DNA of 64,000 nt, taken from NCBI RefSeq assembly GCF_030295425.1, contig NZ_AP027081.1, forward strand, positions 992,001-1,056,000, read 5' to 3'. Shown piece by piece: positions 33,560-64,000 of this stretch. The DNA is from Mesoterricola sediminis (GTDB lineage Bacteria; Acidobacteriota; Holophagae; Holophagales; Holophagaceae). The position numbers were made by a program, and so were the translations under genes. Under the pieces are notes generated by a model. That model ran no database searches and was not told where the DNA came from. It was given only the letters and a program-made list of their open reading frames with translations. Every line of letters begins with the position of its first letter. The first letter of the stretch is position 1.

Positions 33560-34595
33560 GCGGCCGGGACGGCCGCGCCCGGATCCCCCTGGGGTTCGCC
33601 CTGGCGGGGGCGGGGGCGCTGGCCGCGCTGTGGTTCCTCCGGGAGGCCCTGGCGCCCTTCTTCGTGGCCCTGGTGCTCACCTACCTGCTGGAACCCCTCG
33701 TCTCGCGCCTCTCGCGCCGCATGAGCCGGTCCCTGGCCTCGGTCCTGGTGATCCTGGTCTCCCTGGCCGTCTTCATCCTGGTGCTCTGGGCGGTGCTGCC
33801 GGTGCTCTACGGCCAGGTGGAGCGCCTCGTCCACGCGCTCCCCGATCTGCGGGCCCGGGCGGAGGGGCGGTTCCTGCCCTGGCTCCAGGCCCACCCGGCC
33901 GTGGCGGCGAAGTACCGGAGCGCCCTGGAGGGCATCGACCCCATGGCCGTCCTCAAGGGGGCCGGCACGGCCGGGGCGGGCCTGGTGGGGGTCCTGCTGG
34001 ACGCCATCACCCTCATCCTGGTCCCGCTCATCGTCTACTACCTCCTGCTGGAGGGGCCCCGGCTCCACCAGGCCCTGGACGATCTGGTGCCGCGCCGGCA
34101 CCTGGCCGCGGCGCGCCGCTTCGCGGAGGACGTCAACGGCCGGCTCGGGGGCTACATCCGGGGCCAGCTCGGGGTCTCCGCGGTCATGTCCGTCCTCCAG
34201 GCGGTGGGATTCGCGGCGGCGGGGGTCCCCTACGCCTGGCTCCTGGGGCTCGTGGCCGGGTGCTCCAACGTGGTCCCCTACTCGCCCTACATCACCGCCC
34301 TGCCGGCGGCCCTGGTGGTCGCGGCCGCGGACGGGGCGGGGGGGAGCCGGCTCCTGGCCGTGGCCGTGGTCTTCACGCTGGTGCAGAAGGTGGAGGCCCT
34401 CTACCTCACCCCGGTCTGGGTGGGGCGCGCCAGCGGGCTGCATCCGCTGGAGGTCCTGCTGGGCATCCTCTGCTTCGGCTTCGTCTTCGGGTTCCCGGGC
34501 CTGGTCTTCGCCGTGCCCCTCACCATCGTGCTGAAGGTGGCCGGGAAGGCCGCCCTGAAGGCCTACACGTCCCATCCCTGGTTCACGGCGGCCCC

Positions 34596-34599
<4 letters not shown>
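33556..34599 (+). CDS. AI-2E family (PerM/TqsA) membrane permease
   Basis: 347 aa with about seven or eight TM helices: ALAPFFVALVLTYLLEPLVSRL near the start, a soluble segment, VPLIVYYLLLEGPRL, LGGYIRGQLGVSAVMSVLQAVG and LVQKVEALYLTPVWVGRASGLHP. These are family hallmarks. Substrate unknown; only some members act in AI-2 export. The TTG start at 33556 overlaps the pgsA stop (TTGA). It overlaps the sensor kinase by 4 bp, so the three genes form one unit. Confidence 0.85.
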
Positions 34600-38507
<3,908 letters not shown>

Positions 38508-38525: not shown

Positions 38526-39176
38526 ATGAGGCTGCTAGACTGGTTCAACCCCGAGCGTCCCATGCCCGACCTCCCCGCCCACCTCCTCATCGTGGACGAC
38601 CTGCCGAAGAACCTGCAGGTCCTGGCCCTCCTGCTGGACAAGGCCGGCTACCGGGTCTCCATGGCCATGGATGGGGCCCAGGCGCTGGCCATGGTCCAGG
38701 CCGAGCCGCCGGACCTGATCCTCCTGGACATCATGATGGCGGGCATGGACGGCCTGGAGGTGTGCCGCCGCCTGAAGGCCGACGAGGCCTTCCGCGACAT
38801 CCCGGTCATCTTCCTCACGGCCAAGGCCGAGCTGGAGGACCTCCAGGAGGGGTTCCGGCTGGGGGCCGTGGACTACGTGACCAAGCCCTTCCGGGGCGGG
38901 GAGCTCCTGGCCCGGGTGGCCACCCACGTGCAGTTGAAGCGCGCCCTTGAGCGGGAGCGGGACCTGCGGCGCAGCCTGGAGGCCTCCCTGGCCCAGGTGC
39001 GGACCCTCTCCGGCATGCTCCCCATCTGCGCCCGCTGCAAGAAGATCCGCGACGACAAGGGCTACTGGAACCAGATCGAGACCTACATCGAGGCCCACTC
39101 GGACGTGGACTTCACCCACGGCATCTGCCCGGAGTGCAGCCGGGCGCTCTACCCCGAGATGGGGGATCCGAGCTGA
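38526..39176 (+). CDS. Response regulator with C-terminal Cys4 motif
   Basis: 216 aa. Receiver domain (HLLIVDDLPKNLQVL, phosphoacceptor in LILLDIMMAGMDG, VIFLTAKAE, YVTKPFRG) followed by a coiled coil and the module LPICARCKKIRDDKGYWNQIE...HGICPECSRALYPE. Two CxxC pairs suggest a metal or redox site. There is no DNA-binding or enzymatic output domain. It lies 18 bp after the hybrid kinase and probably forms its phosphorelay partner. Confidence 0.88.
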   Translation: MRLLDWFNPERPMPDLPAHLLIVDDLPKNLQVLALLLDKAGYRVSMAMDGAQALAMVQAEPPDLILLDIMMAGMDGLEVCRRLKADEAFRDIPVIFLTAKAELEDLQEGFRLGAVDYVTKPFRGGELLARVATHVQLKRALERERDLRRSLEASLAQVRTLSGMLPICARCKKIRDDKGYWNQIETYIEAHSDVDFTHGICPECSRALYPEMGDPS

Positions 39177-39891: not shown

Positions 39892-42537
<2,646 letters not shown>

Positions 42538-42549
42538 CCGACCGCGCCT

Positions 42550-42597
42550 GGACAGCCGGGGCCCACGGGCCCCGGCTGTCCGCGTACGGCGGGTTTT
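42550..42597 (+). terminator. secA terminator
   Basis: GGACAGCCGGGGCCC and its exact complement GGGCCCCGGCTGTCC (42550-42581) form a perfect stem 12 bp after the secA stop, followed at 42594-42597 by TTTT. The best Rho-independent candidate in the window. Confidence 0.8.
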
Positions 42598-42636
42598 CCC
42601 CTGACAAATCCCGGGACTTCATGTTCTGCTAGGGCC

Positions 42637-43491
42637 ATGGAACTGGTCATCGTCACTGGCATGTCGGGTGCGGGCAGACGCTCGGTGCTCAGCGCCCTGG
42701 AGGACGCGGGCTGCACGGCCCTGGACAACGTTCCTGCTCGTCTGCTTGAGCCGCTGCTGGAACTGGAGGCCAAGCTCAACCCGAGCCGGCCCCGGCTGGC
42801 CGTGGGCATGGACAACCGGCACCCGGAGTTCGCGGACGAGTTGCCGCCCCTGGTGGAGCGCCTCCTGGACGGCAGCATTCCCGTCTATGTGGTGTTCGTG
42901 GAGGCCGACGACGAGACCCTGCTCCGCCGCTACTCCGAATCCCGCCGCCCCCACTTCCTGGCCCGGGAGGGCAGCCTCCTGGAGGCCATCCACCGGGAAC
43001 GGGAGATGCTGTCGCCCGTGCGGGGCATGGCCACGGCGATCATCGACACCAGCAACCTGACGCTCAGCCAGATGCGCAAGCGCATCGCCGACCTGCTGCC
43101 GGACCTGCCCGTGGAGGGCACGACCCTGCGCCTCATCAGCTTCGGCTTCAAGCACGGCGTGCCCCAGGAATCCGACATGATCCTGGACGCCCGCTTCCTG
43201 CCCAACCCCCACTACGTGGCCGAACTCAAGGCCCTGACGGGGAAGGACAGCGCCGTGAAGGACTTCCTGCTCAAGTCGGACCTCTTCGGGACCTTCCTGG
43301 CCCTGGCGGAGAACTGGGTCCAGTGGGCCTGGCCCTACATCCAGCAGGAGGGCCGCGCCTACCACACCATCAGCATCGGCTGCACCGGCGGCCAGCACCG
43401 CAGCGTGGCCCTGGTGGAGATGCTCGCCCAGCGGTTGCGCCGGGACATCCCCAAGCTCGTGGTCACGCACCGGGAGCTGAACGGCGACTAG
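42637..43491 (+). CDS. rapZ: RapZ-family protein with degenerate Walker A
   Basis: 284 aa. The C-terminal half is a clear RapZ/YvcJ domain: ISFGFKHGVPQESDMILDARFLPNP and ISIGCTGGQHRSVALVEMLA, the sugar-phosphate-sensing part. The N-terminal P-loop domain has TGMSGAGRRSVLSALEDAG, so the Walker A Lys-Ser/Thr is Arg14-Arg15. ATP/GTP hydrolysis by this domain is therefore doubtful. In E. coli RapZ steers RNase E to small RNAs controlling GlmS. No PTS genes are next to it. Its 3' end overlaps the convergent permease by 29 bp. Confidence 0.88.
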   Translation: MELVIVTGMSGAGRRSVLSALEDAGCTALDNVPARLLEPLLELEAKLNPSRPRLAVGMDNRHPEFADELPPLVERLLDGSIPVYVVFVEADDETLLRRYSESRRPHFLAREGSLLEAIHREREMLSPVRGMATAIIDTSNLTLSQMRKRIADLLPDLPVEGTTLRLISFGFKHGVPQESDMILDARFLPNPHYVAELKALTGKDSAVKDFLLKSDLFGTFLALAENWVQWAWPYIQQEGRAYHTISIGCTGGQHRSVALVEMLAQRLRRDIPKLVVTHRELNGD

Positions 43492-47287: not shown

Positions 47288-48490
47288 ATGGTCCCGGCCG
47301 CGCCCCCCGAGCACCTGCCGCCGCTGACGCCGGAGGCCTGGGAGCTGCTGCTCCTGGCCGGTCGTCTGGACCTCGCCCCGGGCGACGCGACCCGTCTCGC
47401 CGCCCTGGCCCGGACGGCCCTGCCCTGGGCGAACCTCCTGGCCTGGGGGGAGCGCCTCGGGGCGCTGCCCCTCCTCCACCACCACCTCGCCGCGCAGCCG
47501 GAGGCCGCGCCGGCGGAGGTGCTGACGCGGCTGGAAGCGGCCTACCGGAAGACCTCCCTGCGCAACCTGCGGAGCTTCGCCCTCCTCCGGGAGATCCTGG
47601 CGAAGGCGGAGGCGGCGGGGGTGCCGGTCCTCTGCCTCAAGGGCTCGGTGCTCGCGCCGGACCTCTACGGGGACCTGGGCCTGCGGCCCATGGGCGACCT
47701 GGACCTCCTGGTCCGGCCCGCGGACGCCCCCGGCCTGGAGGCGATCCTCGCCGGCATGGGCGCCTTCCGTTCCCCGGATGGCCGCCGCCGCGACCCCGCG
47801 GAGGTCCCCGCCTCCGTCCAGGAGGTGATCGGGCACGGCCTGCCCTGGTTCTTCCCGTCCGTGTGCCGGGTGGAGATCCACCGCCACCTCCTGGCGGAGG
47901 GGATCCGGGACGACGGGTGGCTTCAGGCCGACCTGTGGGCCGGCGCCCGCACCCGGGACCTGGACGGGGTGCCCCAGCGGGGGCTTGGCCGGGAGCACCT
48001 GGTCCTCCACCTGGCCAGCCACCTGGCCCATCACCTGGAGGAGGGCGCCGTCCACCTGTACTGGTTCACGGACCTGGGGGCCCTCCTCCACCGGGAGGGG
48101 CCGGCCCTGGACCGGGCCGCCCTGGCCGCCCTGGCCCGGCGCCTGGGCCTGGAGGCCGGGTGCCGGGAGGTCTTCGGCCTCCTGGGCGCCGCCTGGGACG
48201 GCCCGGGACCGGACGATGCCCGGGGGGCCTTCCCGCGCCTCGCCGCGGCCCTGTCCGTCCAGACCGTGGTCCCGGCCGGCCTGCCGGGGCTGACGGGCCT
48301 GGGCGCCATCCGGCGCGTCCGGGGCCTGCGGAACCGGGTCCGCTACCTGGGCGAGGTGTTCCTGCCCGCGCCCTGGAAGCTGGAGGTGGCCTTCGGCCGC
48401 AGCCGGCCTCGCCCGCTCCTGCTGCTGGCCTGGCCCTGGGCGAAGGCCTGGCGCCTGGCGCGGACCCTGGTGCGCCGGGCGGTGGGCTGA
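47288..48490 (+). CDS. Nucleotidyltransferase family protein (NTP_transf_5-like)
   Basis: 400 aa. The core is VPVLCLKGSVLAPDLYGDLGLRPMGDLDLLVRPADAPGLEAIL, the KG...RxMxDxDLL pattern of the NTP_transf_5 family (PF14907), in which the two Asp residues bind metal. LVLHLASHLAHH and HLYWFTDLGALL in the middle are also usual. Members are found in exopolysaccharide and peptide-modification clusters, often with PqqD-like proteins. That matches here, as the next gene encodes one. Function is unknown. Confidence 0.78.
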   Translation: MVPAAPPEHLPPLTPEAWELLLLAGRLDLAPGDATRLAALARTALPWANLLAWGERLGALPLLHHHLAAQPEAAPAEVLTRLEAAYRKTSLRNLRSFALLREILAKAEAAGVPVLCLKGSVLAPDLYGDLGLRPMGDLDLLVRPADAPGLEAILAGMGAFRSPDGRRRDPAEVPASVQEVIGHGLPWFFPSVCRVEIHRHLLAEGIRDDGWLQADLWAGARTRDLDGVPQRGLGREHLVLHLASHLAHHLEEGAVHLYWFTDLGALLHREGPALDRAALAALARRLGLEAGCREVFGLLGAAWDGPGPDDARGAFPRLAAALSVQTVVPAGLPGLTGLGAIRRVRGLRNRVRYLGEVFLPAPWKLEVAFGRSRPRPLLLLAWPWAKAWRLARTLVRRAVG

Positions 48491-49977: not shown

Positions 49978-50658
49978 ATGGAGACAACCTCAGCCAGCCC
50001 GGCCACGCTCCCGCGTAACTTCTACAGGGTCGTGGGTAAGCGCCTTTTCGACGTGGCGGCCGCCGGCCTCCTGCTCCTCCTCACGACCCCGTTCTGGGTG
50101 CTCACGGCGATCCTCGTCCGCCTCAAAATGGGGTCGCCCGTGCTCTTCCGGCAGCAACGGCCCGGGTACGGCGGTAAGCCCTTTATGATGATCAAGTTCC
50201 GTTCCATGAGCGATGAGCGGGGATCCGATGGAGAGCTCCTGCCCGACGCCCAGCGCCTGGGGCGTTTCGGCAGCATTCTGCGATCCAGCAGCCTGGATGA
50301 GCTGCCCGAGCTGCTGAATGTGCTCAAAGGGGACATGAGCCTCGTGGGACCCCGGCCCCTCCTCATGCAGTACCTGCCTCTCTACACCCCCGAACAGGCC
50401 CGGCGGCACCACGCGCTCCCGGGCATCACGGGGTGGGCCCAGATCAACGGGCGCAACGTCATCAAGCTCAGCCGCCGGGTCGAGCTGGACGTGTGGTACG
50501 TGGACCACCAGAGCTTCCTCCTGGACCTCAAGATCCTGGCCCTCACCCTGCCGCGGGTGCTCTCGAGCCGGGGGGTCATCGTGGCCGAGACCTACGAGGA
50601 GATGATGGACCTGGGCCGCGGGGACGATCAGGGCGCGGGGGCCGGCAGGGACCGGTAG
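49978..50658 (+). CDS. Initiating sugar-1-phosphate transferase (bacterial sugar transferase family)
   Basis: 226 aa, monotopic PglC-like size. KRLFDVAAAGLLLLLTTPFWVL is the re-entrant membrane helix, followed by GSPVLFRQQRPGYGGKPFMMIKFRSM, SLDELPELLNVLKGDMSLVGPRPLL with the catalytic Asp-Glu, and PGITGWAQINGRN. It attaches the first sugar phosphate to undecaprenyl phosphate and so starts a glycan. The sugar used cannot be read. It has its own promoter and overlaps the convergent FemAB-like gene by 31 bp. Confidence 0.92.
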   Translation: METTSASPATLPRNFYRVVGKRLFDVAAAGLLLLLTTPFWVLTAILVRLKMGSPVLFRQQRPGYGGKPFMMIKFRSMSDERGSDGELLPDAQRLGRFGSILRSSSLDELPELLNVLKGDMSLVGPRPLLMQYLPLYTPEQARRHHALPGITGWAQINGRNVIKLSRRVELDVWYVDHQSFLLDLKILALTLPRVLSSRGVIVAETYEEMMDLGRGDDQGAGAGRDR

Positions 50659-51686
50659 GCGGGGAAGTAGCCGTCCGCCGGGCGCTGGCCCGGGTGGGCT
50701 TCCGCCCAGGCGTCCACGCACGCCTGGTACCGGGCCGGGTCGTGGATGCGCTGGAAGACGCTGAAGATCACCCGCAGGGGGGAGAACCCGGCCTTGAAGC
50801 GGAAGATGCCGTCGCCGGGCTGGTAGCCGCCGCCGCAGAGGAGCCGGCGCCGGCCCTCCCGGGCGCACCGCTTCATGGCCTCGAAGTGGTAGGCGTTCAC
50901 GGGGCGCACCCGGGCCTGGTCCAGGTCCGCGGCCGACAGGTGCCAGTAGACGTTGGCGTCGTCCTGGAAGTAGAGGCCCCCGGCGACCACGCGGCCCTCG
51001 TGCTCGGCCAGGAGGGTGAAGGCGTGGGGCCCCAGGGTCCGGTGGATCTCCAGGAAGTAGTCCGGGGGGAGGTAGTACCGGTCCAGGGCCGCCCGCCGCA
51101 CCATGGTTTCGTGGTGGAGGGCGTGGAAGGCCAGCACGTCCGCGTCGGTCTCGGCCTGCCGGACCTCCACCCCCGCCTCCATGGCCTGGCGCGTCTGGCG
51201 CCGGGTGTCCGAGGAGAGGGACTGGCTCCAGAGGGCGGCCTCGCCCAGGGTGAGATCGATGTAGACCAGTTCGCGGTTCACCCGGAGGCCCTCGGCGGGG
51301 AGGAGGTCCTCCTGGGCCTGCCAGGGGTTCAGGTGGGCGAACTCCGCCACGATCCCTTCCTGGTCGCACCAGGCGTCGAAGGCGGCCTGGAAGGCCCCGG
51401 GCTCGGGTCCCGTCGTCGTGCCCACGAGGATGGGGCCCGTGTACTCCGGCGTGGTCGTGTCCCAGAGGGGGGGCGTGGCGGCGCCCGCCTGGGGTTCCAC
51501 GGACCGGAGGAAGCAGGGGTAGGCCACGTGGCCGCCGGGGCAGGGCATCACGAAGAGCCGCCCCACCTGCCCGAAGTACCGCTCCTGGAGCCGCACGTAC
51601 TCCAGCGAGCCCAGCACGCTGACGGAGGCGGGCAGGGCCTCGCGCCAGGCGGCCTCGTCCCGGGTGGTCAACACGCGCCAGGTCAC
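50628..51686 (-). CDS. FemAB/GNAT-type acyl- or aminoacyltransferase, second copy
   Basis: 352 aa. LSSDTRRQTRQAMEAGVEVRQAETDADVLAFHALHHETMVRR and LLAEHEGRVVAGGLYFQDDANVYWHLSAADLDQARVRPVNAYHFEAMKRCA match the same family as the protein at 48797-49837; FRFKAGFSPLRV parallels its FAFKRLFSP. Whole-length similarity between the two is low by eye. It is translationally coupled to the proline dehydrogenase upstream (ATGA overlap). Confidence 0.75.
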   Translation of the reverse strand: MTWRVLTTRDEAAWREALPASVSVLGSLEYVRLQERYFGQVGRLFVMPCPGGHVAYPCFLRSVEPQAGAATPPLWDTTTPEYTGPILVGTTTGPEPGAFQAAFDAWCDQEGIVAEFAHLNPWQAQEDLLPAEGLRVNRELVYIDLTLGEAALWSQSLSSDTRRQTRQAMEAGVEVRQAETDADVLAFHALHHETMVRRAALDRYYLPPDYFLEIHRTLGPHAFTLLAEHEGRVVAGGLYFQDDANVYWHLSAADLDQARVRPVNAYHFEAMKRCAREGRRRLLCGGGYQPGDGIFRFKAGFSPLRVIFSVFQRIHDPARYQACVDAWAEAHPGQRPADGYFPAYRSLPAPAP

Positions 51687-54565: not shown

Positions 54566-55768
54566 ATGAACGGACAACCCGCCTCCCCCGTCACCCGGAT
54601 CTCCCCCTACGCGCCCTGGCCCTTCTACGCGCCCGATGAGGTGGACGCCGTGACCCGGGCCCTGGCCTCCGGCAAGGTGAACTACTGGACCGGGGACGAG
54701 ACGCGCGCCTTCGAGCGGGAGTACGCGGCGGCCGCCGGCGTCCCCCACGCGGTGGCCGTCTGCAACGGCACCTCGGCCCTGGAACTGGCCCTCTACGCCC
54801 TGGACATCCCGCCCGGCTCGGAGATCATCACCACGCCCCGCACCTTCATCGCGAGCGCCAGCTGCATCGTCATGCGCGGCTGCGTGCCCGTCCTGGCGGA
54901 CGTGGATCCCGTCAGTCAGAACATCACGGCGGAGACGATCGCCCGCGTGATCACCCCCCGCACCCGGGCCGTCATTCCTGTTCATTTGGCCGGCTGGCCC
55001 TGCGACATGGATCCCATCCTGGAGCTGGCCGAGCGCCATGGGCTCAAGGTCATCGAGGACTGCGCCCAGGCCAACGGCGCCACGTACAAGGGCCGTCCGG
55101 TGGGATCCCTCGGCCACATGGCCGCCTTCTCCTTCTGCCAGGACAAGATCATCACCACCGGCGGGGAGGGCGGCATGGTCACCACCTCCGACCGCGCCCT
55201 CTGGGAGCGGGCCTGGAGCTTCAAGGACCACGGCAAGAGCTGGGACGCCGTGTACAACCGGACCCACGCCCCCGGGTTCCGGTGGCTCCACGAAAGCTTC
55301 GGCACGAACTGGCGCATGACCGAGCTCCAGGCCGCCATCGGCCGCGTCCAGCTCGCCAAGCTGCCGGAGTGGACCCGCCTCCGCCGGGCCAACCTGGCGC
55401 GCTTCAACGCCCTCTGGAGCCGCTTCGCCTGCCTGCGCACCACCCCCGCCCCGGCGGAGATCGGGCACGCGGCCTACAAGGCCTACGTGTTCGTCCGGCC
55501 CGAAGGCCTGAAGCCCGGCTGGACCCGGGACCGGATCCTGGCGGAACTGACCGAGCGGGGCGTGCCCAGCTTCAGCGGCTCCTGCAGCGAGATCTACCTG
55601 GAGAAGGCCTTCACGGACAGCCCCTACGGGCCCTTCCCCACCCTGCCCGTGGCCCGGGAGCTGGGGGAGACGAGCCTCATGTTCCAGATCCACCCCAACC
55701 TGACGGAGACGAACCTGGGCGAGACCGAGGCCGCCATGGCCGAGGTCTTCGGGCAGGCCTCGCGCTGA
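54566..55768 (+). CDS. DegT/DnrJ/EryC1/StrS-type sugar aminotransferase
   Basis: 400 aa PLP enzyme. VAVCNGTSALELALYALDIPPGSEIITTPRTFIASA, VIEDCAQANGATYKGRPVGSLGHMAAFSFCQDKIITTGGEGGMVTT with the PLP Lys in CQDK, and GTNWRMTELQAAIGRVQLAKLPEW are family marks. It aminates a nucleotide-linked 3- or 4-keto sugar. The 80-bp spacer upstream is AT-rich and holds the hairpin GAAAGCC/GGCTTTC. Together with the sugar transferase it suggests an amino-deoxysugar in the glycan. Confidence 0.9.
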   Translation: MNGQPASPVTRISPYAPWPFYAPDEVDAVTRALASGKVNYWTGDETRAFEREYAAAAGVPHAVAVCNGTSALELALYALDIPPGSEIITTPRTFIASASCIVMRGCVPVLADVDPVSQNITAETIARVITPRTRAVIPVHLAGWPCDMDPILELAERHGLKVIEDCAQANGATYKGRPVGSLGHMAAFSFCQDKIITTGGEGGMVTTSDRALWERAWSFKDHGKSWDAVYNRTHAPGFRWLHESFGTNWRMTELQAAIGRVQLAKLPEWTRLRRANLARFNALWSRFACLRTTPAPAEIGHAAYKAYVFVRPEGLKPGWTRDRILAELTERGVPSFSGSCSEIYLEKAFTDSPYGPFPTLPVARELGETSLMFQIHPNLTETNLGETEAAMAEVFGQASR

Positions 55769-55774
55769 ACGGAT

Positions 55775-56317
55775 CTACTGCGGCTTCCGGGAACGGAGGA
55801 GCCGGGCCGGGTTGCCGCCCACGATGGCGTAGGGGGGGACGTCCTTGGTCACCACGGCGCCGGCGGCGATGATGGACCCGCGGCCCAGGCGGCGCCCGGG
55901 CAGGATGATGGCGTTGGTGCCGATCCACACATCGTCCTCGATGACCACGGCCCCGCCGCCCACGTAGCCCTGGTCCAGCATGGGCACGGTCAGGTCGTCG
56001 AAGCGGTGGTTCTGGGTGAGGATCACCACCCCGGGGGCCATCATCACGTCATCGCCGATGTCCAGGGGCCCGCCCACCCGGCAGTTGACGCCGATGCCGG
56101 ATCGCTTGCCCACGCGGATGCCGCGCCCGCTGCCGAAGTCGGCCCCGTGTTCGATGTTGGCCCCGGCGCCCACCCCGTCCAGGAGGAATCGGGCCAGGAA
56201 GCGGCGAAGGGCGCCCGCGCCGAAGGCATAGGCCCGGGCCGAGCCGGGCAGGTGCCGGGCGAACGCGTAGTACAGCATGAACGCGGGCAGGCGGAGCAGG
56301 GCTTTCATGGGAGGCAT
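55775..56317 (-). CDS. Hexapeptide-repeat acyltransferase (WbbJ/WcaF-like)
   Basis: 180 aa. Left-handed beta-helix repeats: [32 protein letters not shown], then [50 protein letters not shown]. The NH pair in TQNHRF is the usual catalytic His of O-acetyltransferases in sugar clusters. It likely acetylates a sugar. ATG 56308 is an alternative start. Convergent with the aminotransferase, 6 bp apart. Confidence 0.88.
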
Positions 56318-56348: not shown

Positions 56349-59300
56349 TTACTGGCACTCCGCCACCCAGGCGGAATTCACGGAGAGGTTGCTCTTCAGG
56401 GTGTTGTAGAGGGTCGTCGTGTTGAACAGGTTGTCCAGCGTCGTCGTGCCCTTGTAGACGTTGATGGCGTTGGTGAGGCAGGTCTGCCAGCTGGCGGGCA
56501 TGTTGCTCACGGTGCCGGTGAGGCCCCACGGATCGTAGTTCTCCACGTAGAGGCCCGGCATGAAGCCCGCGGGCGTCTGTTGCAGGCAGTAGACCAGGTT
56601 GCGGGTGAAGTAGTTCTGCTGGTCGGTGGTGGACTTCACGAAGTAGGCGCCGGGGTAGATGGTGCCGTAGCTGGCGTCGAAATAGGGGTTCGCGAAGATG
56701 AGGGGCACCGGCACCCAGCAGGTCGCGCTCTTGGCGATGGCGTCGGTCTCGGTGGGGAAGAAGATCGAGACCCAGTTCTTGCTGGCCGTCATGTTGCGCT
56801 TGATGGAAGCCAGGCCGCTGAAGTTGTAGTAGCTCAGCTCCACGTAGTCCACGATGCGGCCCGTGGAGGGGCAGGCGTCGAGGAGGCCGAGGCAGAAGTA
56901 GGGCAGCATGTTGTACCAGGGGTCGGTGGCGAAGGCCGAATCGGGCATGGACGACGGGATCCCGGTTCCGCCGTTGGTCCAGTCGATGACGGCGGTGCTG
57001 CCGAAGAAGAGGTAGAGCCGGGCGTTGGGCACGCGGCTCCAGAGGCTCGTCCCGAAGGCCTTGCCGAAGGCCCGCATGTTGGCGCACATGGTGGCGCGGG
57101 AGACCGTGGGGCTGTTGAGGATGGGACTGCCGCCGGAGGTCTGGTTGTAGTTGTACATCATCACGGTGGTCTGGTAGTTCTCGCAGTCCAGCATGAAGCT
57201 CTGGGAGCCGGCGGCCTTGGCCACGTTCACCACGCCCGCGACCACGTTGTCCATGTAGGTGGTGGAGTTGGCGTTCTGGATGTTCCAGGTGGAGGAGGGA
57301 TTGGAGGTCATGCGGACCATCACCTCGTCCAGGGGGCTGGTGTAGCCGGAGACATTGGCCGCGTCGCTGTTCCAGGTGGCCAGGGAGTAGGAGGTCTCCA
57401 TGGTGAGGTTCTCCACCCCCACCCAGTAGCGGGCGCCGCGCATCCAGGGATTGGCGGTCATGGCGGCCGGGGTCCTGGACGAGGCGTACATCGAGGTGGA
57501 GGGGAAGTGCTGGAAGAGGCCCATGAAGCCGGCGATCCCGCCGCTGCTGGAGGAGCCGGTCACGGCGGAGACGGTGATCGTCGTGCTCGTGTAGCCGGCG
57601 CTGTTGGTGGCGGTGACGGTGTACGAGGCCGCCGAGGCGGTGGCGAGGGCCGTTCCGCTGATGACGCCCGTGGTGGCGCTGATGGAGAGGCCCGCGGGCA
57701 GGGTCGGCGTCACCGAATAGGAGGTGACGGTCCCGGTGACGGTCGGCGCCGCCGAGGCGAAGGCCGTGCCCACCGTGGCGGTCAGGGTGGGCTGGGCGTA
57801 GACCAGGTTCGTGGGCGCGACGAGGACGGCGGCCACCGAGATCGTCACGGTCGCGTTGGTGGAGCCCGTGATGTTGGCGGCGGTCACGGTGTAGGTCGCG
57901 GCGGCGGAGGCCGCGCTGGGCGTGCCGGAGATGGCGCCGGTGGTCGTGCTGAAGGAAAGGCCGGCGGGCAGGGCCGGCGAGATGGACCAGGCGGTCACCG
58001 TGCCGGTGACGGTGGGGACGTCGGCGGTGATCGGGCTGTTCTGGGTGGCGGCGATCGTGGTCTGGGGATAGCTCAGGGAGGTGGGAGCGGCCGGATTGAC
58101 CGTGATCGTGAGGTTCGCGGTGGTGGACCCGGCGGTGTTGGTGGCCGTGACGGTGTAGGCGGTGGCGGCCGTGGCCGTGGCCGGGATGCCGGAGATGGTG
58201 CCGGTGGAGGCGCTGAAGCCCAGGCCCGAGGGCAGGGCGGGGGAGGCGGTGTAGTAGTCCACCGTGCCCGTCACGGTGGGGGTCTGGGCGGCGAGGGTCT
58301 GGCCCACGACGGCGACGATGCTGGTCTTCGGATAGACGAGGGAGGTGGGGGCCTGGAGGGCGCTGGCCACCGAGATGGTGAGGGTCGTGGTGGTGGAGCC
58401 GGCCGCGTTGGCGGCGGTGACGGTGTAGGCGGCCGAGGCCGTGACCGTCGTCGGCGTGCCGGTGATCACGCCGGTCGAGGCGTTGAGGACCAGGCCTCCG
58501 GGGAGGGCCGGGGACACGCTCCAGCTGGAGACCGTGCCCGTGACCGTCGGGTTGTCCTGGGTGATGGCCTTGCCTACCGTGGCGGCCAGGACCGGCTGCG
58601 CGTAGCTGAGGCCGGAGGGAGCGGCCACCTGGACCGTGAGCGACAGGGTGGCCCGGGCCGAGCCCGTGGCGTTGGTGGCCGTGACGGTGTACGAGGCGGT
58701 GGCGGCGGCGGCGGTGGGGGTGCCCGAGATGACGCCCGTGGACGTGCTGAGGGCGAGGCCCGCGGGAAGGGCGGGGGAGATGGCGTAGGACGTGACGGTG
58801 CCCGTCACGGTGGGCGCGGCCGACGCGAAGGCCGTGCCGACGGTGGCCGTCAGCGTGGAAGGCGCATAGGCGAGGCCGGAGGGGGCGGCCACCTGGACCG
58901 TGAGCGACAGGGTGGCCCGGGCCGAGCCCGTGGCGTTGGAGGCGGTGACGGTGTACGAGGCGGTGGCGGCGGCGGCGGTGGGGGTGCCCGAGATGACGCC
59001 CGTGGACGCGCTGAGGGCGAGGCCGGCGGGCAGGGCGGGGGAGATGGCGTAGGACGTGACGGTGCCCGTCACGGTGGGCGCGGACGAGGTGAAGGCCGTG
59101 CCGACGGTGGCCGTCAGCGTGGAGGGTGCATAGGCGAGGCCCGAAGGCGCGGGGATCTGCACCGCGAAGGTCAGGGTCGTCGAGGTCGACCCGGCGGCAT
59201 TGGTGGCGGTGACGGTGTAGGTCGCCGCGGCGGAGGCCGCCGTCGGCGTTCCGGAGATCACGCCGTTGGCCGCGTTGAGGGCGAGGCCCGCGGGGAGGGC

Positions 59301-60893
59301 GGGGGAGATGGTGTAGGACGCGACGGTCCCCGTCACCGCGGGCGCCGCCGACGCGAAGGGCGTGCCGACGGTGGCCGTGAGGGTCGCCGGCGTGTAGGCC
59401 AGGGCGGTGGGGGCGCTGAGGGCCGTGGCGACGGAAACCGTGACCGGGGCGGTGGTCGACCCGGCGGCATTGGCGGCCGTGACCGTGTAGACGGCCGCGG
59501 GCGTGGCCGTCGTGGGCGTGCCGGTGAGGATGCCGGTGACCGGGTCGAGGGCCAAGCCCGCCGGCAGCGACGGGGCCACGGCGTACGAGGCCACGGTGCC
59601 GGTCACCGTGGGCACGTCGGGGTTGACGGGCGTGCCCACCGTGGCGGCCAGGGTCGGCTGGGCGTACGTCAGGCCCGAGGGCGGGGCCAGGGCGGGGGCG
59701 ACGGTGATGGACAGGGTGGCGGTGGCCTGGCCGGCTGAGTTGGAGGCAATGACCGAGTAGGCGGCAGTGGCCGCCGCGGCGGTGGGTGTGCCGGACAGGG
59801 TGCCCGTTCGACTATCCAGGCTGAGGCCCGCCGGCAGGCCGGGCGACGTGGTGTAGGCGGTCACGGTGCCCACGACGGTGGGCGTGAGGGGCGGGATGGC
59901 CTGGCCCACGGTGGCCGCCACCGTGCCGGTGGGGTAGGTGAGGGCGGAGGGGGCGGCGAGGGCGGCGGCCACGGAGAGGGTCACCTGGGCGGTGGTGCTC
60001 CCCGAGGCGTTGGCGGCGGTGATGGTGTAGACCGTGCTGGGGGAGGTGGCCGCCGGCGTGCCCGAAATCAGGCCGCTGGCGGGGTCGAAGGTAAGCCCGG
60101 CCGGCAGGGCGGGACTGATGGACCAGGAAGCGACCGAGCCCGTGACGGCGGGCACGTCGGGCGTGAGGGGCACCCCGACCGTGCCGGCCACGACGGGCTG
60201 CGCGTAGGCCAGCCCCGAGGGCGCGGCGAGGGCGGCGGCGACGGTGATGGCGAGGGTGGCCGTCGCTTGGCCGGATGAGTTGGAGGCGATGATGGAATAG
60301 TTGGCCGTGGCCGAGGCCGCGCTGGGGGTACCGGACAGGGTGCCGGTCGTGCTGTTCAGCTGGATGCCCGCTGGTAGGGCCGGCTTGCTGGTATACGAGG
60401 TCACCGTGCCGACCACCGTCGGCGTGATCGGGGGCAGGGCCTGGCCCACGGTGCCGGACACCACGCCCGTGGGGTAGGTGAGGGCCGACGGCGCGGCGGA
60501 GGAGACCCGGATCCGCACCTTGGCGGAGGCGGACGTGGTGCTGCTGGTGACCGTCACCGTGTACTCGATGGCGTCCGTGGTGACGGCGGGGGTACCGGAA
60601 ATGACCCCGGTGGTGGGGTCCAGGGTGAGACCGGCCGGGAGGGCGGGCGTGATGGAGACCGAGGTGTAGGTGCCCGTGATGGTGGGCACCAGGATGGGGC
60701 TCATGGGCTCGCCTTCCGTGATGGTCACGGAGGTCTGCGGGAAGGTGAGGGTAAGCGTGCTGACGGGCGTCGGGGTGGTGGCGATGGTCGCCGTTCCTCC
60801 GGTTCCTCCCCCGCCGCTGCAGGCGATGATGGAGCAGGCCGCGCCGATCGCAAGAATTCCAAGCAGTCTGATTTGAATGCTTCCAGCGCGCAT
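56349..60893 (-). CDS. Giant lipoprotein: 12 He_PIG (putative Ig) repeats plus C-terminal hydrolase-like domain
   Basis: 1514 aa. Signal ends [10 protein letters not shown], a good lipobox. Residues about 45-1110 are 12 repeats of 84-88 aa of the type AP-x-x-L-x-Y...VTGTV...PALPAGL...TGVISGTP...YTVTATN. Residues about 1115-1514 form a separate domain with Trp/Tyr-rich motifs: FMLDCENYQ (Asp1236, Glu1238), [26 protein letters not shown] and [11 protein letters not shown]. Strands ending in acidic residues suggest a TIM-barrel, glycoside-hydrolase-like fold; this is inference. GGAGG lies four bases before the ATG. A smaller relative is at 61741-63765. Confidence 0.85.
58621..59148 (-). repeat. 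Near-identical tandem 264-bp units in the He_PIG gene
   Basis: Units 58621-58884 and 58885-59148 (88 codons each) are almost the same at the DNA level, far closer than any other pair of repeats in the gene. They correspond to two consecutive Ig-like repeats with [20 protein letters not shown]. This indicates a recent in-frame duplication. Confidence 0.8.
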
Positions 60894-60928
60894 ATGCCCT
60901 CCGGAGCGGGTACCCGGCTGCGAACCTC

Positions 60929-60934
60929 TATATA
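60929..60934 (-). promoter_or_regulatory. TATATA -10 box of the giant lipoprotein gene
   Basis: TATATA 36 bp upstream of the ATG, in the AT-rich 60894-61083 spacer shared with the PilZ gene. No standard -35 is seen, although TTAATGTTAATG (minus strand, about 60956-60967) is a noticeable direct repeat upstream. TAGGAT at 61049-61054 could serve the PilZ gene on the other strand. Confidence 0.4.
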
Positions 60935-61113
60935 TCGGCCAGAAAAACAGGCGCCATTAACATTAAGGGATTATTGTGGTTTCCGCCCGCTTTTTTCTTT
61001 GAATCTCGAAGTCCTCTCATGGTTTTAGCTTTTTATGCCGAAATGACCTAGGATGTGCCAGGCCCTGTCCGGCCGGATTCGGAATGGACAGTTCAAAGCC
61101 CCCGGAGGTTCCC

Positions 61114-61740
61114 GTGAGCTCCCCCGTCGACAAGCGCCGCCATGAACGCCTCCCCGCCCACGGAGAGATCCGCATCAAGGGCAAGGGACGCCTCGGCATC
61201 TACGCCGTGGTCCTCAACGTCAGCCTCGGCGGCGTGCTGCTCAGCGCGACGCCCTCCCTGCCCGTCGGAAGCCAGTGGAACGTGAGCCTGCGCACGCTGG
61301 CCGCCCAGCGCGTCCAGGCGATGGGGACGGTGGTCCGCAACGACGACGGCGGCACGGCCCTCAAGTTCGCGCAGGAGCTGAGCCCCTCCAGCCTGAAGAT
61401 CCTCACGGGCGCGCCGGAGAAGGCGGGCGGCGTGATCAGCGCCTACCTCACCTACTTCCAGGTGGGGCGCAACGAGCGGAACGCCGGCTGCGAGCACCTG
61501 CTGGGCGTCAGCCGCCGCACCTTCAAGACGGTCTTCTATTCGACCTTCTCCGCCTCCCTGCCCCTGGCGGTCGCGCCGGTGTGGTTCGCCCGGGCCGCCT
61601 TCCAGCCGTGGCCCGTGTGGCTCAAGATCTCCCTGAGCTTCCTGTACGCCGGGTTCTGGCTCTTCGTCCTGCAGCCCACGATGGATGTGGCGATCCTCGG
61701 CTTCATCCGCAAGCTCAGGGCCGCGAAGCAGCCCGCCTGA
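61114..61740 (+). CDS. PilZ-domain membrane protein
   Basis: About 208 aa. KRRHERLPAHGEIRI provides the RxxxR motif and LNVSLGGVLLSATPSLPVGSQW the [D/N]xSxxG motif of c-di-GMP-binding PilZ domains (residues about 7-100). The C-terminal half has two TM helices (ASLPLAVAPVWFARAAF and ISLSFLYAGFWLFVLQP) and a basic end. GTG 61114 is chosen because GGAGG lies five bases upstream; ATG 61084 in frame lacks a ribosome site. It lies between the two He_PIG lipoproteins, and its stop abuts the stop of the second. Confidence 0.85.
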   Translation: MSSPVDKRRHERLPAHGEIRIKGKGRLGIYAVVLNVSLGGVLLSATPSLPVGSQWNVSLRTLAAQRVQAMGTVVRNDDGGTALKFAQELSPSSLKILTGAPEKAGGVISAYLTYFQVGRNERNAGCEHLLGVSRRTFKTVFYSTFSASLPLAVAPVWFARAAFQPWPVWLKISLSFLYAGFWLFVLQPTMDVAILGFIRKLRAAKQPA

Positions 61741-63765
61741 TCACCACTCCAACCCGCCCGCGGCCGCGGCGGCCTGGAGGACCGGATCCAGGTTCATGCC
61801 GAGGGGCTGCCCGTTGGCGACCTTGGCGCGGGCGTCCAGGAGGGCGGCTTCCGCCCCGTCCGGAATGCCCGACCGGTTCACCCAGTCCGTGGATTCGGCA
61901 TAGACCCAGACGACCCGGGAGGTGTCGGTGAGGCACCAGAAGGCCTGGTAGTCCAGGAACCTTGGCCGGTCGGACGCGGCCAGCCAGTGGGCCAGATCCG
62001 CGGCGCTGTTGTTCTGGTCGAAGGTCGCGTCCAGGTAGATGGCCATGCCCAGCCGGACCTGGGCCGCGTAGCGGTCGCGCACCGCGGCGTCCAGGAGGGA
62101 GGGGCCCGTGGTCAGGACGAGGTTTCGGAGGTTGGCGTACCAGGTGCTCCGATAGAAGTTGTACGTCGCCTCGAACCCGTCCGTGACGGTCATGCCGCCG
62201 GCGGCCACGTCCAGGATCCCGTTCAGGAAGTCGGGCATGAGCCCGTAGGGGTGGGTCGGGAAGGCGCTGCTGGCCCAGAACTGGAGGGTCCCGTTGCGCA
62301 GCAGGCTCAGGGAGCCGAAGCAGAAGAGATCGCAGCCGGGATAGGCGGTCTGGATGGCCGTCATGAACTGCTGGCCCCGGCGCCGCGCGTTGGCCTGGCA
62401 GGCCTGGAAGGTGTGGGCGGAGGCGTCGTAGGCGCGGTAGTCGAAGAAGCTGGTCTGGCCCTGGTTGGGGTAGGCCTCCGGGTCGAAGGCGACCCCCGCC
62501 AGGCCGCCGGCCTTCGCCTGCTGGGCGAAGGCCGTCACGTTGGCCAGGGCCGTGGTCCAGTGGGCATCGCTGAAGGGATCGAAGCCCGCGTCCAGGCCGC
62601 CCCGCATCAGCAGGTAGTTGGTGGTCAGCTTCGCCGAGTTGATCTGGGGCACGTTCACGGTGTCGGCGGCCAGGGACGACGCGGTGTAGGCCGTAGTGCG
62701 GAAGACCACCCGGCCCGCCTTGAGGGCGAAGACGAGGCCATCGAAGGGGGCGGCCTCCAGGTTGGCCCGCTTGGCCAGGACCACGTCCGAGGTGGGCGGG
62801 ACGCCCTGGATGAGCAGCAGCCGCTGGGAGGGCGCGGGGGCCGCCGACACCTGGATCTGCAGGGTCGCCTGGGTGGCTCCGTAGGGGTTGGAGGCCGTCA
62901 CGGTGTAGGCGGCCAGGGCCGAGGCGGCGGTGGGGGTGCCGGCGAGGACGCCGGTGGCCGCATCGAGGGTGAGGCCCGCCGGCAGCGCCGGCTGGACCGC
63001 GTAGGCCGTCACCGAGCCCGTCACCGTGGGCGCGAGGGGGCTGAGGGCGACGCCCACCGTCGCGGCCACGGGCCCCGCCGCGTAGGCCAGGCCCGAGGGG
63101 GCGGTGCCGGCCGCGGCCACCTGGATGCGCAGGGTGGCCGTGGTGGATCCGTACGCGTTCAGGGCGGTGGCGGTGTAGGCGGCCAGGGCCGAGGGGGCGG
63201 TGGGGGTGCCCGACAGCACGCCGGTCGTCGGGTCCAGGGCCAGACCCGCCGGCGGGTCGGGCGTAAGGGTGAAGCGCGTGACCGTGCCCGACACCGTGGG
63301 GACATCCGGGGCGATGGGCAGGCCGGCCGTGGCGCTGATGAGGGCCGTCGGGTAGGTGAGGGCGCTGGGGGGCGCGTTGGCGGCGGCCACCTGGATCTGC
63401 ACCTGGGTGGAGGTCGCCCCGTGGCTGTTGCGGGCCGTGACGGTGTACGCGGCCAGGGGGGAGGCGGCGGTGGGGGTGCCCGACAGGGTCCCGGTGGCGG
63501 AGGCCAGACTCAGCCCCGCGGGGAGGCTGGGGGAGACGGCGAAGGCGTCCACGGTGCCCTGGACGGTGGGGACGACGGGGGTGATGGCCGTGCCCACCGT
63601 GGCCTGCAGGGTGCCCGATGGATAGGCCAGGCCGCTGGGCGCCGTGCCGCCGGCGTCGCCGGACCCGCAGGCGGCGAGGAAGGCCAGGCCGGCCAGGAGG
63701 AGCGCCCGCCCCCCCTGGCTCAGGCGCCTGCGCAGGTGGCCCCCCCCGAACATGGTTCCTGACAT
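61741..63765 (-). CDS. Lipoprotein: 3 He_PIG repeats plus C-terminal hydrolase-like domain
   Basis: 674 aa. Signal ends LLAGLAFLAACGSGD, a perfect lipobox (LAAC). Three 85-aa He_PIG repeats (about 40-300) precede a ~370-aa domain: GLAGVAFDPEAYPNQ (Asp428, Glu430), DLFCFGSLSLLRNG, GMAIYLDATFDQNN, RFLDYQAFWCLT and VVWVYAESTDWVNRSGIP. The D-x-E strand end and later Tyr-Ala-Glu parallel the C-terminus of the 1514-aa neighbour. A secreted glycan-active barrel is inferred; I do not recognise a named family. ATG 63753 is an alternative start. Confidence 0.82.
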   Translation of the reverse strand: MSGTMFGGGHLRRRLSQGGRALLLAGLAFLAACGSGDAGGTAPSGLAYPSGTLQATVGTAITPVVPTVQGTVDAFAVSPSLPAGLSLASATGTLSGTPTAASPLAAYTVTARNSHGATSTQVQIQVAAANAPPSALTYPTALISATAGLPIAPDVPTVSGTVTRFTLTPDPPAGLALDPTTGVLSGTPTAPSALAAYTATALNAYGSTTATLRIQVAAAGTAPSGLAYAAGPVAATVGVALSPLAPTVTGSVTAYAVQPALPAGLTLDAATGVLAGTPTAASALAAYTVTASNPYGATQATLQIQVSAAPAPSQRLLLIQGVPPTSDVVLAKRANLEAAPFDGLVFALKAGRVVFRTTAYTASSLAADTVNVPQINSAKLTTNYLLMRGGLDAGFDPFSDAHWTTALANVTAFAQQAKAGGLAGVAFDPEAYPNQGQTSFFDYRAYDASAHTFQACQANARRRGQQFMTAIQTAYPGCDLFCFGSLSLLRNGTLQFWASSAFPTHPYGLMPDFLNGILDVAAGGMTVTDGFEATYNFYRSTWYANLRNLVLTTGPSLLDAAVRDRYAAQVRLGMAIYLDATFDQNNSAADLAHWLAASDRPRFLDYQAFWCLTDTSRVVWVYAESTDWVNRSGIPDGAEAALLDARAKVANGQPLGMNLDPVLQAAAAAGGLEW

Positions 63766-63878
63766 GGGGCCCCCCAGGTGATGTGCAAGTCTAGCCGCGA
63801 CGGGTGCGTTTCGTGGCTATGATTATGAACATTCCAGCATCCGCGTCCGGGATCTCCGGTCCTTTCCTGGGAGCGCCA

Positions 63879-64000
63879 TTGCGTATCCTGCCGTTTCTAG
63901 CGTGGTTGGCCCTGGTGCCGGCTGTTTGGCTGAGCGCCCAGGCCCCGGACGCCTCCGCGGAGATCCAGCGGCGGGTGGACGCCCTCCCTCCCGGCGGGAC
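63879..64000 (+). CDS. Secreted protein, N-terminal part only
   Basis: TTG start with GGGAG five bases upstream, running off the window end after 40 complete codons. (M)RILPFLAWLALVPAVWLSAQA is a clear signal peptide with cleavage likely after AQA; the mature part begins PDASAEIQRRVDALPPGG. Too short to name. Divergent from the 674-aa lipoprotein. Confidence 0.6.
   Translation, partial: MRILPFLAWLALVPAVWLSAQAPDASAEIQRRVDALPPGG

Follow-up and report, generated by a model that had tools for sequence, protein, structure and literature searches.

The described system closest in logic to the locus reported here is LapD-LapG-LapA with its relatives, in which cyclic diguanosine monophosphate (c-di-GMP) controls whether a large adhesin is retained at the surface (PMC3032545, PMC6890996). 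For a possible enzymatic role the closest counterparts are PgaB (family GH153, PMC5933820), PelA (PMC9894940, PMC12022489) and PslG (PMC9075953), which are biosynthetic exopolysaccharide (EPS) hydrolases. We compared them with a 64,000-nt stretch of DNA from Mesoterricola sediminis (assembly GCF_030295425.1, contig NZ_AP027081.1, positions 992,001-1,056,000 of the forward strand; hereafter the window), where the gene for a PilZ protein is flanked by those of two lipoproteins, A and B, which carry stalks of immunoglobulin (Ig)-like He_PIG repeats and related C-terminal domains, or heads. The best joint explanation, which we consider somewhat probable, is that A and PilZ form a conserved two-gene module and that the heads belong to a new barrel-like family acting on EPS. 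Biofilm control has been little studied in Acidobacteriota.

The likeness to the Lap system lies in an inner-membrane protein of c-di-GMP-receptor type whose gene accompanies that of a very long surface protein on a repeat stalk, an arrangement that plausibly links the second messenger to what is displayed at the surface. However, the window has a PilZ protein where Lap has a degenerate GGDEF-EAL/HAMP receptor, and its long protein is a lipoprotein conserved in the signal peptide, whereas the Lap adhesin is secreted through an outer-membrane pore. No Lap-type genes (GGDEF-EAL receptor, BTLCP protease or type 1 secretion adhesin) were detected among the scanned neighbours. With PgaB, PelA and PslG the locus shares a predicted barrel-type, glycoside hydrolase-like domain encoded within an EPS cluster. 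In contrast to the new lipoproteins, those enzymes belong to the synthesis machinery, occur in single copy and carry no long Ig stalks, while the cluster here is of the Wzx/Wzy type; the new domain, moreover, has no sequence match to Pfam or PDB families and falls into none of theirs. Other surface proteins with He_PIG or Ig-like stalks resemble A and B in repeat type and lipid anchor, but He_PIG is uninformative about the heads, and this genome's four further He_PIG loci do not carry the partner signal peptide described below.

The PilZ gene and its stalked lipoprotein partner

An earlier note, made from this DNA sequence alone, had described two He_PIG lipoproteins with 12 and three repeats enclosing a PilZ gene. 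Each element of that description was confirmed: the coordinates and lengths (Table 1), the lipoboxes (SIIAC in A, FLAAC in B), the repeat counts, given by stretches above the curated Pfam cut-off for He_PIG (PF05345), and the position of the PilZ gene. Both lipoproteins are presumably located at the surface. The PilZ domain (PF07238) was recognised at E=4.1e-10, with 40.3 bits against a cut-off of 22.5, and its ligand motifs read RRHER at residue 18 and NVSLGG at residue 45. Given these RxxxR and NxSxxG motifs, which suggest c-di-GMP binding, and the two hydrophobic C-terminal segments, sensing of c-di-GMP at the inner membrane by this protein is plausible. The C-terminal region (YxxYFxVS...LLGVS...QPxxD), well conserved among the orthologues, is an extension with two transmembrane (TM) segments and no Pfam match, and together with the PilZ domain it may represent an undescribed PilZ architecture.

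A search with the PilZ protein recovered orthologues of practically full length, 34-45% identical to it, in 16 further Holophagaceae genomes; the A/B domain is not encoded in any of these. At 15 of the 17 loci, the window's included, PilZ has as its neighbour a large stalked lipoprotein that starts with [30 protein letters not shown] or a closely similar sequence; a further copy, in genome G038 (G and L numbers are our handles for genomes and loci), is broken across contig ends and is excluded from this count. The two genes are divergent in nine cases, co-directional with PilZ first in three and convergent in three, and a beta-helix gene stands between them in G066 and apparently also in G067. 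G015 and G037 (L055, L062) have kept PilZ with no adjacent signal-matched lipoprotein. Judged from titles and the openings of abstracts, the open literature on PilZ, EPS, signal peptides and Acidobacteria/Geothrix yielded no description of such a pair.

We also looked for PilZ beside the A/B domain in other genomes, a co-occurrence that the earlier note had proposed as a check. None was found by phmmer searches of the neighbourhoods or by a PilZ family search, the latter an insensitive one that missed even the window's PilZ. The idea that PilZ travels with the hydrolase-like domain was rejected, with no PilZ detected near L028-L031 or L026-L027. PilZ thus appears from these comparisons to track the lipoprotein class and not the domain. 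A and PilZ are a pair, whereas B is a bystander relative and not obviously part of the pairing, because its signal peptide is not the shared one and the domain homologues elsewhere had no detected PilZ neighbour. Of the earlier proposal that A and B are jointly under c-di-GMP control, the half that concerns A retains support from the pairing of PilZ with A-type lipoproteins, and the half that concerns B does not.

PilZ could instead regulate EPS synthesis only, with the neighbouring lipoprotein co-inherited as part of an EPS locus and in no functional contact with it. PilZ proteins that control polysaccharide synthesis are well known, and PglF, Wza or Wzc adjoin PilZ in several relatives that lack A/B domains. 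We nevertheless consider this explanation unlikely, though worth keeping in view, since the lipoprotein neighbour has been retained at the loci counted above despite three orientations, and persists in G066 and G070, where PilZ sits at SecA-RapZ and not at EPS genes. In addition, the signal peptide of the lipoprotein is more conserved than PilZ itself. The preferred reading is a module in which PilZ would control the production, processing or display of A, as its linkage to A-type genes suggests. Two observations count against this module: the Ser of NxSxxG is Gly in 8 of the 17 PilZ orthologues, and some PilZ loci (L055, for example) are away from EPS genes.

In the window, SecA and RapZ (39892-43491) are about 17 kb from PilZ; they are directly beside it in the same-genus genomes G066 and G070 (L049/L050). 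At this syntenic site the interval between RapZ and PilZ seems to have undergone a gain (or loss) of EPS and other genes.

A near-fixed signal peptide with exchangeable heads

Signal peptides ordinarily drift freely. Those of the partner lipoproteins follow the consensus GSIQxRLLGxLxIGxxCSxIAC, with a mean identity of 0.67 for the 22-residue stretch that ends at the lipid-modified Cys (n=15 sequences). Seven positions (R-16, G-13, G-8, S-4, I-2, A-1 and C0) do not vary among the 14 sequences tabulated by codon. Other lipoprotein signals from the same regions (n=5 only) show a mean identity of 0.23 among themselves and of 0.21 to the partner signal, against 0.67-0.70 for the partner signals, and mean identity is also lower in the PilZ domain (0.48) and the PilZ TM region (0.52). 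Wza behaves in the opposite way to the partner lipoproteins; between the window genome and G014 its signal is 18% identical and its mature part 64%. The distances among signals are correlated with those among PilZ proteins (Mantel r 0.58-0.62), as co-inheritance would predict, and the correlation is not specific to the TM region. A carries the consensus beside PilZ, and the signal of B groups with the unrelated ones.

Since codons differ in 49% of identical-residue comparisons, the sequences indicate that the constraint is on the protein. A nucleic-acid element, such as a translational or promoter signal of divergent genes, would be a very improbable cause. It would suit the many divergent pairs and the few positions that are nearly single-codon (GCC at -1, ATC at -2), but the codon differences speak against it, the signal is equally conserved in co-directional and convergent pairs, and the 70 nt upstream hold no obvious common motif.

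The partner lipoprotein heads, by contrast with the signal, fall into groups unrelated to each other. One type of beta-helix is common to G006, G036 and G020, a pectate-lyase-type beta-helix is found in G066 and G070, and a short beta-helix in G012. G018 and G068 have a head without a Pfam match that we read as sandwich-like, and in A the head is the new C-terminal domain. Across genera the signal has kept 67% identity whereas the mature proteins have become unrelated, and it stays beside PilZ in any orientation. These data allow us to propose a Holophagaceae module, often at or near EPS clusters, that would consist of an inner-membrane PilZ protein and an outer-surface lipoprotein built from a signal peptide that hardly varies, a stalk of Ig-like repeats and an exchangeable, polysaccharide-acting head; A and PilZ would be this strain's copy.

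The invariant small residues of the signal suggest, as a hypothesis only, a contact with another membrane helix. A far-reaching version, which we regard as quite improbable, is that the two-TM PilZ protein reads the signal peptide as a TM helix through R-16, G-13, G-8 and S-4, so that c-di-GMP would gate the processing or surface delivery of a protein with a swappable head. If this were true, the signal peptide would be an export licence controlled by a second messenger. Should PilZ and the lipoprotein touch, they would offer a new and directly testable form of c-di-GMP control over displayed surface enzymes or adhesins.

The C-terminal domain family

The C-terminal domains of A (about 400 amino acids, aa) and B (about 375 aa) are homologous (BLASTP E=4e-7). 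A leave-one-out hidden Markov model (HMM) built from the six other family members recovers A with E=1.2e-14 and 51.7 bits among 3712 open reading frames, and an HMM from four distant members alone recovers B at 6e-53 and A at 2e-11. The earlier note had proposed a shared and apparently undescribed domain on the strength of similar motifs, LDCEN/FDPEA and GLYVEN/WVYAES. All four motifs were located in the domains, the common ancestry was borne out by BLASTP and by the HMMs that exclude A, and the database searches agree with its novelty. None of the seven members matches Pfam at E<=10, PDB sequences gave no match by phmmer or profile, and NCBIfam gave only sporadic, unrelated ones. No significant match to the known glycoside hydrolase (GH) families of Pfam and NCBIfam was obtained.

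The seven members (alignment A2) are A, B, L012/L003, L006, L007, L008 and L009. They come from six genomes, including that of the window, out of the several hundred Acidobacteriota genomes that were searched; other genomes of the window's own genus lack the domain. Viral-contig scans and three plasmid tblastn searches gave no matches, and a search of the genome contigs with a three-row alignment returned only the locus of UBA1801, a member of the Holophagaceae. The UBA1801 protein (L012/L003) combines Ig repeats, a beta-helix and the domain in a single chain of 1450 aa, and in L007 the domain is fused to a marginal CBM9-like C-terminus. We rejected a recent tandem duplication as the origin of A and B, whose domains are 18% identical, whereas those of B and L012 share 49%. 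In UBA1801 (L026:2387-16568), the 1450-aa protein comes after two giant proteins of 1292 and 1414 aa, the first of which ends in the beta-helix type of the G066 partner lipoprotein.

Nine positions are invariant in all seven homologues (B-domain numbering): D129, E131, Y133, R162, G165, D230, E233, Y236 and D280. We built two AlphaFold2 models, one each for the A and B domains, from three-row alignments. The models agree in an alternating order of strands and helices, with seven or eight alternating elements. In both, D-x-E falls where strand 4 ends and D-x-x-E at strand 6, while the following D comes just past strand 7 and the last E at strand 8. TIM barrels predominate among the Foldseek matches to the PDB for both models. 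The B model matches isocitrate lyase, Old Yellow Enzyme, Cwp19, Endo H and BT_3987, the last two at E of about 0.02 for what is a low-confidence model, and the matches of the A model include GH5, GH6, GH18, O-GlcNAcase and PslG.

With fair confidence, the models point to a TIM-barrel, (beta/alpha)8-like fold with no identified family. The D-x-E ending strand 4 recalls GH18 and endo-beta-N-acetylglucosaminidases such as Endo H and BT_3987, as far as low-confidence models can place it, but the new domain has no Pfam GH18 match and has extra invariant acids on strands 6 and 7. Several results weigh against a hydrolase barrel. Confidence is low for both models (B, predicted template-modelling score, pTM, 0.56 and mean predicted local distance difference test score, pLDDT, 50; A, pTM 0.52 and mean pLDDT 45). 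Foldseek E values lie above 0.005, with no match below 0.001, template-modelling scores are about 0.2-0.35, barrels that are not GHs (Old Yellow Enzyme, isocitrate lyase) are among the matches, and the final acid, E325, is E in six of the seven members and Q in L008. The earlier prediction of a TIM barrel with acids at its strand ends therefore stands in part. Both domains gave similar topologies and mainly barrels in structure prediction and fold search, and the acids recur in the seven homologues, whereas the models and match statistics are weak and the last-strand acid is not universal.

The heads might also be non-catalytic, forming a glycan-binding or matrix-anchoring barrel, its hydrolase activity lost or never acquired, that would serve as an adhesin and fasten the cell to the EPS it makes. 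Long Ig stalks and lipid anchors fit adhesins, the sandwich-like heads of G018 and G068 belong to no recognised catalytic family, and one acid is replaced in L008. However, at least five acidic positions are invariant although most members are just 18-30% identical to the domain of B, and such invariance is typical of a catalytic or metal site. An adhesin without hydrolase activity is for these reasons a minority possibility in our estimation, and hydrolase activity of the A and B heads is predicted with moderate confidence.

Glycan genes around the domain loci

Genes of the EPS cluster lie on both sides of A and B (Table 1), with a HAD gene also among those to the left of A. To the right of B and beyond the window follow the beta-helix gene, a glycosyltransferase-like reading frame, Wzy, two glycosyltransferases, Wzx, a Wzc-like gene, Wza and a PglF-like dehydratase. 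The A, PilZ and B genes therefore sit inside a Wzx/Wzy-type EPS cluster and not at the end of a glycan cluster, as the earlier note had it; the cluster runs at least 14 kb past B.

Table 1. Positions in the window of the lipoprotein, PilZ and glycan-related features
Feature	Coordinates	Strand
Protein A, lipoprotein of 1514 aa with the conserved signal peptide, 12 He_PIG repeats and the new C-terminal domain	56349..60893	-
Signal peptide of protein A, [25 protein letters not shown], common to PilZ-adjacent lipoproteins in 14 other genomes	60819..60893	-
Protein A stalk, 12 He_PIG (Ig-like) repeats	57567..60740	-
Protein A C-terminal domain, TIM-barrel-like, with D-x-E, D-x-x-E, D and E motifs	56352..57569	-
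PilZ protein, 218 aa, with the motifs RxxxR and NxSxxG and two hydrophobic segments at the C-terminus; 190 bp from A (divergent), tail-to-tail with B	61084..61740	+
Protein B, lipoprotein of 674 aa with an ordinary signal peptide, 3 He_PIG repeats and a C-terminal domain of A's family	61741..63765	-
Protein B stalk, 3 He_PIG repeats	62848..63627	-
Protein B C-terminal domain, 49% identical to L012 domain	61744..62829	-
NTP_transf_5 nucleotidyltransferase-like protein	47288..48490	+
Bacterial sugar transferase (Bac_transf, initiating glycosyltransferase type)	49978..50658	+
FemAB/GNAT-like acyltransferase	50628..51686	-
DegT/DnrJ/EryC1 aminotransferase	54566..55768	+
Hexapeptide-repeat acetyltransferase-type protein, directly downstream of A	55775..56317	-
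Right-handed beta-helix protein, 5' end, divergent from B, continuing beyond the window (L025:805-2298)	63804..64000	+

A similar setting is seen at other loci of the domain. L006 (L028) has Wzy 3.5 kb away, together with Wzx and Wzc; L008 (L030) is surrounded by glycosyltransferases, an epimerase and Wzy; and L007 (L029) adjoins gmd and fcl, encoding GDP-mannose dehydratase and reductase. Wzy is found within 6 kb of the domain in three of the six genomes (P about 5e-5 by chance when each genome's count of Wzy genes is taken into account). It tells against a general link that L009 and L012, two of the six domain loci, are outside glycan clusters.

Those two loci would be in keeping with enzymes that digest foreign polysaccharides for nutrition, their EPS-cluster location being incidental, as would beta-helix heads that resemble pectate lyase or rhamnogalacturonase-type folds. 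We judge this improbable, as no SusCD/TonB uptake genes were found among the scanned neighbours and four of the six loci have Wzy or gmd/fcl close by. An action on self-made EPS is preferred, and the heads of A and B, as members of an undescribed domain family, make a good case for glycan hydrolases of this kind. They would most likely bind and cleave or trim the EPS made by the surrounding cluster, and B and the adjacent beta-helix protein would probably act on the same polymer as A. A surface glycan-processing domain, as the earlier note had suggested, is the best reading of the C-terminal domain; the gene context and the fused beta-helix and CBM9-like modules support it, and the activity itself is a prediction.

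The beta-helix protein next to B (L025:805-2298) is a stand-alone protein with a hydrophobic/arginine C-terminal tail and is a possible third EPS-processing surface protein. Elsewhere in the window, positions 33630-38507 encode a 1625-aa hybrid two-component sensor (Reg_prop propeller, Y_Y_Y, HisKA and response regulator), with a response-regulator gene downstream at 38526.

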